The position numbers and the translations under genes are program-made. Positions 60,236 through 63,239 of a DNA stretch of 64,000 nt are shown here, one piece after another (position 1 is the first letter of the stretch; every line of letters begins with the position of its first letter). Origin of the DNA: Alphaproteobacteria bacterium (GTDB lineage Bacteria > Pseudomonadota > Alphaproteobacteria > GCA-2731375). The notes below the pieces were generated by a model. It searched no databases, was not told where the DNA came from, and saw nothing but the letters and a program-made list of their open reading frames with translations. Where the stretch lies: positions 1 to 64,000 of the forward strand of contig JAJFGG010000061.1 in assembly GCA_021776235.1 (NCBI GenBank). Reading direction: 5' to 3'.

Positions 60236-61675
60236 ATGCACAAAATGCGAGAGAACGGACTGGTAGTGGTTGTTAAGCGGGATTGCCCGACCTGCGTCTT
60301 AATCGAACCGGTCTTGCAACGGCTAACGGAACAGGGGGATCTGACGGTCTACAGCCAGGATGATCCGAGCTTTCCCGAAGGTATCGCCGATGTGGCCGAT
60401 GACACCGCCTTGGACAACTCCTACCGTCTGGGAGTGGAAATCGTTCCGACCCTGGTGCGTTTTGCAGATGGCGCCGAGGTTGAACGAACCTTTGGCTGGG
60501 ACCGCGCGGTCTGGGAGACCATTACCGGCGCCGGCGATCTGGGTGCGGACCTGCCCCCGTTCAGGCCTGGCTGCGGTGCCTTGAACCAGGAACAGGACCG
60601 CCTGACGGAACTGAAAATCCGCCATGGCGATACCCCCATGGTATCCCGCCATGTCCAACTTGGCGCCAAGGAAGACCCGATCGAAGCCTGTTACGAGCGC
60701 GGCTGGAGCGACGGCTTGCCGGTGGTCCCACCGACCCAGGCCCGGGTGCTGGCCATGTTGGAAGGTACCACCCGGGCCCCGGACGAGGTGCTGGGCCTGA
60801 TGCCGTCGAACCTGGATACCTGCACGGTGGAAAAGGTCGCCATCAACGCGGTCATGGCCGGCTGCCGGCCCGAATACATGCCCGTGCTCCTGGCGGCGAT
60901 CGAGGCGGTGCTGGATGATGACTATTGTCTGCATGGCACCCTGGCGACGACGCGGTTCGTCGGGCCGGTGGTCATTGTCAATGGCCCCATCGCCCGGCAG
61001 ATCGGCATGAACGGCAAGGGTAACGCCCTGGGCCAGGGCAATCGGGCCAATGCCACCATCGGCCGGGCCGTGCAATTGGCCGTGCGTAACATCGGCGGCG
61101 GCAAGCCCCAGGGCGTAGACCGGGCCACTTTGGGTAACCCGGGTAAGCTGAGCTATTGCTTCTGCGAGGACGAGGAGGGTTCCGCCTGGGAACCCCTGAC
61201 CGTCGACCGGGGCCTGACCGCCGGCGCCAATGCGGTGACGGTATTTGCCGGCTTTGGCTTGCAAGGCGTGATCGACGATCTGGCGCGGACGCCAGAGGAA
61301 TTGGTGGAATCCATGGCCTCGTCCCTGCGGGCGGTGGACAATGTGAAGAAGTTTCCCGGCCCCGATTGTCTTTTGGTGGTCTGCCCCGAGCACGAGCGGA
61401 CCTATATGGAAGGCGGTTGGGACAAGGCACGGGTCCACAAGGAATTGATGGCGCGCATGGCAGTGCCCGCGGACGATGTCCTGCGCGGACTGGGCGGCAT
61501 GGCCGAGGGTGTGAAGCCCGAGATGGCCGGCAAAACCGTATCAAAGCTGTTGCCCAATGGATTAATGATCGTCCGCGCTGGTGGCGGCGCGGGCAAGTTT
61601 TCTGGTATCATCGCGGGCTGGACACCGGGCACGCCGGAATCCAGCCGGCCCGTGACAAAGGAGGTGAAGACATGA
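60236..61675 (+). CDS. Thioredoxin-fold protein fused to a large domain, partner of the UGSC selenoprotein
   Basis: A 479-residue protein. Residues about 8-105 are thioredoxin-like with the redox pair Cys17-Pro-Thr-Cys20 (KRDCPTCVLIEP) and the cis-proline in VEIVPTLVRF near 75-84. From about 125 to the end lies a domain of about 350 residues with ERGWSDGLPVVPPT, NGPIARQIGMNGKGNALGQ and NPGKLSYCFCEDEEGS; I do not know its activity. Its stop overlaps the start of the selenoprotein gene (ATGA), so the two are translationally coupled. A redox partnership is inferred. A second in-frame ATG at 60245 is possible. Confidence 0.85.
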   Translation: MHKMRENGLVVVVKRDCPTCVLIEPVLQRLTEQGDLTVYSQDDPSFPEGIADVADDTALDNSYRLGVEIVPTLVRFADGAEVERTFGWDRAVWETITGAGDLGADLPPFRPGCGALNQEQDRLTELKIRHGDTPMVSRHVQLGAKEDPIEACYERGWSDGLPVVPPTQARVLAMLEGTTRAPDEVLGLMPSNLDTCTVEKVAINAVMAGCRPEYMPVLLAAIEAVLDDDYCLHGTLATTRFVGPVVIVNGPIARQIGMNGKGNALGQGNRANATIGRAVQLAVRNIGGGKPQGVDRATLGNPGKLSYCFCEDEEGSAWEPLTVDRGLTAGANAVTVFAGFGLQGVIDDLARTPEELVESMASSLRAVDNVKKFPGPDCLLVVCPEHERTYMEGGWDKARVHKELMARMAVPADDVLRGLGGMAEGVKPEMAGKTVSKLLPNGLMIVRAGGGAGKFSGIIAGWTPGTPESSRPVTKEVKT

Positions 61676-62211
61676 GCATGACAGATATTCTTTTGGACCC
61701 CACGGGGGAGCGGGAGGCGGCAGAACGGCCGCGCCTTGCCCGTCCGGCTTCCCTGGACGGCCTGACCGTCGGCGTGCTGGACATTTCCAAGCCTCGCGGC
61801 GATGTGTTTCTGGAGCGGGTCGCGGCCCTGATCGAGGCGCGCGGTATTGAGGTAAAACGCTACCGCAAGCCGACCGTGGCGCGGACCGCGCCCATGGCGA
61901 TCCAACAGGCCATCGTCAAGGAAGTCGACGTTGTCGTTGAAGGCCTTGCCGATTGAGGCTCCTGCACATCGTGCTGTACGCATGATATGTTGAATCTGGA
62001 AAGCCGCGGCATCCCCACGGTTGGCGTTGCTACCACGGAGTTTGTCGAGGCCGCGGCGGTGCAGTCGGCGGCGTTGGGTTTCGATCCCGACTATATCTGG
62101 GTCCCCCATCCGATCCAGGACCGCACCGATGACGAATTACATGCATTGGCCGAACGTCACGTGGATGAAATCCTGGCGGCCCTGACCGACCAGGCGGCAG
62201 CGCAGGCCTAG
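61672..62211 (+). CDS. UGSC-family selenoprotein (in-frame TGA at 61954-61956 = selenocysteine)
   Basis: A 179-residue protein when the in-frame TGA is read as selenocysteine (residue 95). Before it the sequence ends VVVEGLAD; after it the same frame runs GSCTSCCTHDMLNLESRGIP and on to QAAAQA-stop. U95-G-S-C98 is the signature of the UGSC family, a selenoprotein group first noticed in marine metagenomes; cysteine homologues have CGSC. Two further cysteines (101, 102) lie close by. The ATG at 61672 has AAAGGAGGTG upstream and overlaps the previous stop. Ordinary gene calling breaks it into a truncated piece ending at 61956 and one starting at 61987 in the same frame. The genome must encode SelA, SelB, SelC and SelD. 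Its activity is not established to my knowledge. Confidence 0.88.
61954..61986 (+). promoter_or_regulatory. Candidate bacterial SECIS element
   Basis: Eleven bases past the TGA, ATCGTGC (61968-61974) pairs with GCATGAT (61980-61986) as a 7-bp stem with one G-U pair, closing a five-base loop TGTAC. The loop G (61976) is about 20 bases after the UGA, within the usual spacing for bacterial SECIS hairpins read by SelB. The fold was drawn by eye. Confidence 0.6.
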
Positions 62212-62216
62212 GGGCG

Positions 62217-63239
62217 GTGACCGCCCCCGTGCAGGTCGCGGTAACCGGGGCCTCTGGTTACATCGCCCTGCACGTTATCGCGGCGCAGCTGGATCAGGGG
62301 TACGCCGTGCGCGGAACCTTGCGCGATATGGCGCGAGGCGAAAAAATCCGCGCCGCCCTGGCAAAACATACGGAAGTATCCGCGCTTAGTTTCGCGGCAG
62401 CCGATTTACTTGCGGATGATGGTTGGGACGCAGCCCTGGCCGACTGCCGGTACGTCATGCACGTGGCATCGCCCTTTCCCATGGTGGATCCCAAAAATCA
62501 TGACGATCTAATCGTTCCGGCCCGCGAGGGTACGTTGCGGGTGCTGGCGGCAGCAGCGCGGGCAGGGGTGCAGCGGGTGGTGATGACGTCTTCCGTTGCC
62601 GCGATCGGTACTGGCCACGAGGACAAGTCCAGTTTTGCCGAGGCCGATTGGAGCGTCGTGGGCAAAGGTGGCGAGGCCTATGCAGCCAGCAAGACCATTG
62701 CCGAACGGGCCGCCTGGGATTTCATCGCCGGTCTGCCGGCGGGGGAAGCGCTGGAGCTGGTGGTGATAAATCCCAGCCTTGTTCTGGGTCCGCTGATCGA
62801 TCCCGATGGCAGCACCTCGATTGAAGTGGTGCGCAAATTATTGGCGCGGGAGGTGCCCGGTTGTCCCAAGATGGGCTTTCCCCTGGTCGACGTGCGCGAT
62901 GTGGCGGCGGCGCACCTGACGGCCATGACCAATCCGGACGCCCCTGGCAAACGCTATATCTGCAGCACCGAGTTCAGAATGTTGGCGCAAATAGCCGAAT
63001 TGCTGAACCAGACATTCGGACCCCAAGGGCATCCTGTACGCACCCGGGAGTTGCCCAATTGGCTGGTGCGCATTGTTGCCCTGTTCGACCCGGCGGTAGC
63101 CCGTATCGTGCCCGAACTGGGCCGGCAAAGACATTTTGACAATGCCGCCATTCGCAAGGATCTGAACTGGCAATCCCGCCCCATGAACGAAACCATCACC
63201 GCCACGGGCGATAGTCTGATCGAAATGGGTATCATCTGA
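62217..63239 (+). CDS. NAD-dependent epimerase/dehydratase-type reductase (dihydroflavonol reductase-like)
   Basis: A 340-residue extended SDR. The cofactor loop is VTGASGYIALHV near 8-19, HVASPFPMV near 83-91 is typical of dihydroflavonol/cinnamoyl-CoA reductase-like proteins, SSVAAIG carries the catalytic Ser near 125, and Tyr-Lys lie in EAYAASKTIAE near 152-162. The start is GTG 62217, six bases after the selenoprotein stop, so it is probably in the same operon. It probably reduces an aldehyde or ketone. Confidence 0.88.
   Translation: MTAPVQVAVTGASGYIALHVIAAQLDQGYAVRGTLRDMARGEKIRAALAKHTEVSALSFAAADLLADDGWDAALADCRYVMHVASPFPMVDPKNHDDLIVPAREGTLRVLAAAARAGVQRVVMTSSVAAIGTGHEDKSSFAEADWSVVGKGGEAYAASKTIAERAAWDFIAGLPAGEALELVVINPSLVLGPLIDPDGSTSIEVVRKLLAREVPGCPKMGFPLVDVRDVAAAHLTAMTNPDAPGKRYICSTEFRMLAQIAELLNQTFGPQGHPVRTRELPNWLVRIVALFDPAVARIVPELGRQRHFDNAAIRKDLNWQSRPMNETITATGDSLIEMGII

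Follow-up and report, generated by a model that had tools for sequence, protein, structure and literature searches.

The window, i.e. the whole stretch of 64,000 nucleotides analysed here, carries on its forward strand a gene with an in-frame TGA, a gene that overlaps its start and a gene that follows its stop. The features of this locus are the following:

60236..61675, + strand: partner gene, apparently obligate, 479 aa, with an N-terminal thioredoxin domain and a domain of ~345 aa without Pfam match
60236..60532, + strand: thioredoxin domain of the partner (CPTC), by hmmsearch to PDB thioredoxins (E=8.7e-5) and VIA-align
60641..61672, + strand: core domain of the partner, 24 invariant columns (alignment A2)
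61657..61666, + strand: Shine-Dalgarno-like AAAGGAGGTG, a strong ribosome binding site 5′ of the UGSC start (direct reading)
61672..61675, + strand: ATGA overlap of the partner stop and the UGSC start (direct reading)
61672..62211, + strand: UGSC selenoprotein gene, 179 aa with the predicted Sec95
61954..61956, + strand: in-frame TGA, predicted Sec95 of the UGSC motif, U95 G96 S97 C98 T S C101 (UxxCxxC)
61968..61986, + strand: candidate bSECIS hairpin, stem 61968-61974/61980-61986 of 7 bp (AUCGUGC/GCAUGAU), loop UGUAC
62217..63239, + strand: NAD-dependent epimerase/reductase-like gene (PF01370, E=2.8e-24), 5 nt past the UGSC stop

A preliminary description of this DNA had proposed that two ORFs are joined by the TGA at 61954-61956, followed by Gly-Ser-Cys codons and two more cysteines. 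Direct reading confirmed this layout: the frame opens at ATG 61672, passes the TGA and GGC TCC TGC (Gly-Ser-Cys), and closes with TAG 62209-62211, the further cysteines being residues 101 and 102. Alignment to the UGSC family, suggested there as a check, was positive with both models available. Pfam PF24696 (UGSC) was matched across the TGA with E=2.7e-45 (155 bits against a cut-off of 25, profile positions 2-171 of 172), and NCBIfam NF041046 (UGSC_fam) was covered from end to end (positions 1-147 of 147; 145.5 bits against a cut-off of 125). A PDB sequence search with UGSC gave no useful match. The window gene shares with the family the full-length match, the U-G-S-C motif, the length and the Sec/Cys exchange, and the protein itself shows no difference from it. 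It belongs to the already known UGSC family, and what is new lies in the partner, the thioredoxin linkage and the Sec-gene island described below. The claim that standard annotation misses such genes was half right: the Acidovorax homologue, which contains the TGA, is entered in the PLSDB table as a ‘hypothetical protein’ of 97 aa that ends at the TGA, but the NCBI model NF041046 exists.

The ATGA overlap likely leads to translational coupling of the partner and UGSC. Coupling to an upstream thioredoxin-fold gene had been proposed; the coupling is borne out by the overlap and by conserved adjacency, but the label is not, thioredoxin covering only the first ~100 residues of the upstream product. 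The epimerase/reductase-like gene is likely co-transcribed with UGSC, and was found clustered with it in 4 loci, those of the nearest orthologues only.

We then compared the TGA codon among homologues. It was present at the Sec95 position in all 120 aligned rows (114 distinct loci once re-fetched copies of the own genome were removed), at identities of 25-88%, and the reading frame stays open 3′ of it. Six more distant plasmid homologues carried a Cys codon in five cases, haloarchaea included (two Natrinema, one Halorientalis, one Arthrobacter, one Embleya) and TGA in one (Acidovorax), so that the search for homologues with Cys in place of U also had a positive outcome. Between close orthologues, dN/dS was 0.117 and 0.094 past the TGA, and equally low ahead of it (0.147 and 0.121); the gapped pairs L063, L090 and L064 were invalid and were discarded. 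The ATG at 61987, which would serve as start if the second half were annotated alone, corresponds to Met in only 7 of 60 homologues, and the downstream half thus most likely lacks a start of its own. With dN/dS values of 0.09-0.12, this half behaves as coding sequence, as had been supposed. All comparative tests support a real selenoprotein, and the TGA at 61954-61956 is very probably read as selenocysteine, as judged from sequence conservation.

The 7-bp hairpin described 11 nt past the TGA, with a G in its loop, was found as stated. Published passages of PMC13188914 give for bSECIS elements a loop of 3-9 nt, a stem of 4-16 bp, a G in loop positions 1-2, a distance of 16-37 nt from the UGA and an MFE of at most −7.5. 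The window hairpin agrees with every one of these values (5 nt, 7 bp, G at position 2, i.e. 61976, apical loop 18 nt from the UGA, −12.8 kcal/mol). Dinucleotide shuffling of the single sequence was unremarkable taken alone (z=−1.5, 15/200), and an Rfam scan of the window returned no matches. Support for the hairpin comes instead from the covariation of synonymous sites. Of 108 distinct sequences, 83 form the complete seven-pair stem, compared with 5% when codons are randomised synonymously; the pairs joining two third codon positions, +12/+30 and +18/+24, are retained above within-amino-acid shuffles of the partner codon (0/2000 each, values inflated by kinship among the sequences), while the third-position pair +15/+27 is uninformative (1151/2000 shuffles). 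Homologues of the Cys form, taken as negative control, gave a mixed picture, with 4-7 of the 7 pairs.

The genome was then searched for the selenium machinery, a further check named in the preliminary description. Adjacent selA and selB genes and two selD genes were found, one of the latter with an in-frame TGA (L018, G000:C46:22266-23192); the second selD sits in a 760-aa open frame (C25), and is perhaps a fusion. Six UGSC genes are present, with one TGA each, as well as five genes of PrdB/GrdB-like type in which the matched stretch contains a single TGA, at the UxxC site (L184, L195, L198, L199 and L200, G000). In L200, a CaiB-like CoA-transferase sequence lies ahead of the PrdB/GrdB-like part in the same frame. 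The exception was selC: no tRNASec was found in this 174-contig assembly, where the RF01852 matches that were inspected proved to be tRNA-Ser, Tyr and Cys, and where the genus consensus tRNASec pattern had no match with 3 mismatches allowed. Nor was any tRNA nested in or beside selB of this genome, an arrangement reported for tRNASec (PMC8124441). Among the other genomes of the family, 13 of 14 have a tRNASec (66-73 bits), with anticodon TCA in the four relatives checked by ARAGORN. An inverted-repeat element of ~270 bp lies beside a thiolase gene (L178:2623-2891, G000:C68; 63-nt arms, 76% complementary). In sister genomes, tRNASec is located on this same flank of the thiolase, and no tRNASec is found there in the present genome. 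With an assembly of 98.4% completeness split into 174 contigs, a gene of 95 bp could plausibly have been missed, and an assembly gap or relocation, rather than true absence, is our tentative explanation. Of the two observations named beforehand as speaking against a selenoprotein, neither was made: past the TGA the sequence shows conservation at the protein level, and the genome has selA, selB and selD.

Next, the association between UGSC and the upstream gene was examined. In 110 of 114 loci the partner core is found no more than 400 nt from UGSC and on the same strand (upstream in 101, downstream in 9), and one of the four others (L040) is a locus cut short. Among 398 genomes of the phylum, UGSC occurred in 5, belonging to five genera, and the partner in exactly those 5; it also accompanied all six plasmid UGSC homologues. 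These distributions support the view that partner and UGSC are an obligate pair. The thioredoxin part of the partner superposes on thioredoxins with a Z of about 10 and an rmsd of about 1.9 over 85-89 residues (VIA-align). Pfam searches with the window partner protein gave only thioredoxin-type and marginal matches, none for the core, and Foldseek returned essentially thioredoxins only, for the first ~100 residues. The core is possibly the ‘Unknown_1’ mentioned in passages of PMC2398784. In the paralogous loci of the same genome, the partner on C60 bears the thioredoxin domain, and those on C149, C126, C21 and C98 match the core only. Some loci have two partner copies per UGSC. On contig C98, two tandem partner-domain genes (L033:7322-9927) follow the divergent UGSC paralogue, and a Rieske oxygenase and a methyltransferase are encoded upstream.

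On an Arthrobacter plasmid the gene order is trxB-trxA-partner-UGSC, and the partner match starts past the thioredoxin part, i.e. the partner is thioredoxin-less. Because the domain is fused in the window and separate trxA and trxB genes are found in Arthrobacter, thioredoxin is the likely electron donor. In Halopseudomonas, Marinobacter, Noviherbaspirillum, Rhodoferax and others, the pair belongs to a partner-UGSC-selA-selB-tRNASec island, in which the distance from UGSC to the downstream start of selA is 19-80 nt in 14 loci and 223 nt in a 15th, with selB next; tRNASec was called in 14 loci. The passages on UGSC in PMC2398784, PMC13188914, PMC9312934 and PMC5029168 make no mention of the partner or of the Sec-gene island. 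A comparable linkage between formate dehydrogenase and selenium genes is the fdoGHI-selABCD cluster (PMC8124441), which likewise joins a selenoprotein gene to selA, selB and selC, but its cargo is formate dehydrogenase, whereas that of the islands is UGSC and its partner. Other UGSC neighbours encode luciferase-like monooxygenases, SDRs, hydrolases, CoA-transferases and TTT/TRAP transporter binding proteins. No constant pathway was found among these catabolic neighbours; though variable, they fit the catabolism of small organic acids, with no specific one indicated. A phosphosulfolactate synthase gene was seen near UGSC of the Cys type on a haloarchaeal and an actinobacterial plasmid (L202, L204).

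AlphaFold2 predicts for UGSC an alpha/beta domain of the doubly wound, flavodoxin-like type (mean pLDDT 92.8). Superposed with VIA-align, the model reached Z values of 9-12 with chains of flavodoxin-like, CheY-like and PurE-like fold, with no thioredoxin among the matches listed. A thioredoxin-like fold, proposed for UGSC in a passage of PMC2398784, finds no support in this model. The predicted flavodoxin-like arrangement is a common one and indicates no function.

In profile comparisons, TIGR01917 (GrdB) was matched by 43 of 60 UGSC members at E<=0.1 (best 1.1e-5), and TIGR04483 (PrdB) was reached by just 2 of 60 (best 0.029). The window UGSC lies far below the Grd cut-offs, with 19.2 bits against 602.2 for TIGR01917 and 17.8 against 65.45 for TIGR01918, and hhalign of UGSC with GrdB/PrdB gave a probability of 18.6% (P=0.0013), a weak similarity of only ~95 residues. 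Membership in the Grd/Prd subunit B family was rejected on these scores, UGSC being a remote relative at most. The similarity with GrdB, GrdF and GrdH (TIGR01917, TIGR01918) lies around Sec, and the UxxCxxC, described for GrdB in passages of PMC13188914, and a thioredoxin-linked system are also shared; the models of these proteins have 431-435 residues, against 179 aa for UGSC. PrdB and PrdB-like selenoproteins (TIGR04483) also have a UxxC site, and its register may be close to that of UGSC, Sec95 falling near profile position 347 and the Cys of the PrdB-like CxxC near 348 when counted from the match starts of weak-scoring matches with gaps ignored, but the partner differs. Comparison of proteobacterial PrdB/GrdB-like proteins with UGSC yielded only weak single-sequence and profile matches, and the searches run with the partner revealed no resemblance to Grd/Prd subunits; nor did a pyruvoyl subunit such as GrdE come up in the course of this work. 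Some proteobacterial PrdB-like proteins have Cys at this site (L186-L189, PNCPVCH), with a CaiB-like CoA-transferase sequence next in the same open frame in several genomes. By analogy, UGSC may work like the Grd/Prd reductases.

Taken together, we favour, with a probability of about 0.6, the reading that UGSC and its partner form a two-component GrdB/PrdB-like selenoprotein reductase recharged by thioredoxin. SelB and Sec-tRNASec would decode the UGA at 61954-61956 under the control of the bSECIS directly 3′ of it. In the model, Sec95 is placed in the loop between the strand 87-93 and the N-terminus of the helix 96-111, where the selenolate would be activated. UGSC would be one subunit and the partner the other, a complex suggested by adjacency and co-occurrence. 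As in GrdB/PrdB, Sec95 might act as the catalytic nucleophile that attacks or reduces the substrate, after which the oxidised protein would close as a selenenylsulfide with Cys98, the resolving residue of UxxC, and be re-reduced by the thioredoxin domain (CPTC) fused to the partner. The likeliest chemistry would be a catabolic reduction that splits a C-N, C-S or comparable bond of a small organic acid. Counting against this reading are the tRNASec not found in this assembly, the weakness and short extent of the GrdB/PrdB similarity, a partner unlike any Grd/Prd subunit in the searches run, and catabolic neighbours that vary from locus to locus.

Alternatively, UGSC may be a selenoprotein of another kind, a thiol- or peroxide-type oxidoreductase serving in redox defence rather than a C-X bond reductase. 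The UxxC motif, the thioredoxin fusion and the trxB-trxA neighbours would suit any thiol oxidoreductase, as would the thioredoxin-like fold put forward in PMC2398784, but the UGSC model is flavodoxin-like, the similarity points to GrdB and not to the Prx/Trx families, and the neighbours are mostly catabolic, which makes this unlikely. Somewhat less probable still is that catalysis resides in the partner, which UGSC would serve only as an electron carrier containing selenium. This would agree with the larger size of the partner, its 24 invariant columns and its two copies per UGSC at some loci; it fits less well with a GrdB/PrdB similarity that takes in the Sec site, and with GrdB being the substrate-binding subunit of glycine reductase, as stated in passages of PMC13188914. 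Finally, the TGA could be a genuine stop codon in an organism that has lost tRNASec, whether in a pseudogene, through a sequencing error or to yield a regulated product of 94 aa. This would agree with the failure to find the tRNASec gene and with the inverted-repeat element at its syntenic place, but is very improbable given the intact selA, selB, selD, six UGSC and five PrdB-like genes, the latter two kinds all with TGA, the TGA common to all close relatives, the purifying selection past it, and an assembly in which so short a gene is plausibly missed.

UGSC and its partner could represent an undescribed class of thioredoxin-driven reductases, remote cousins of the glycine and proline reductases, which in several lineages travel in a compact island with their own selA, selB and tRNASec; this wider proposal is a tentative one. 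With the partner, the fused or neighbouring thioredoxin system and the selA/selB/tRNASec islands, an ‘unknown redox protein’ becomes a specific enzyme of two proteins that is open to reconstitution, and the islands point to culturable hosts for knock-outs, Halopseudomonas and Marinobacter.
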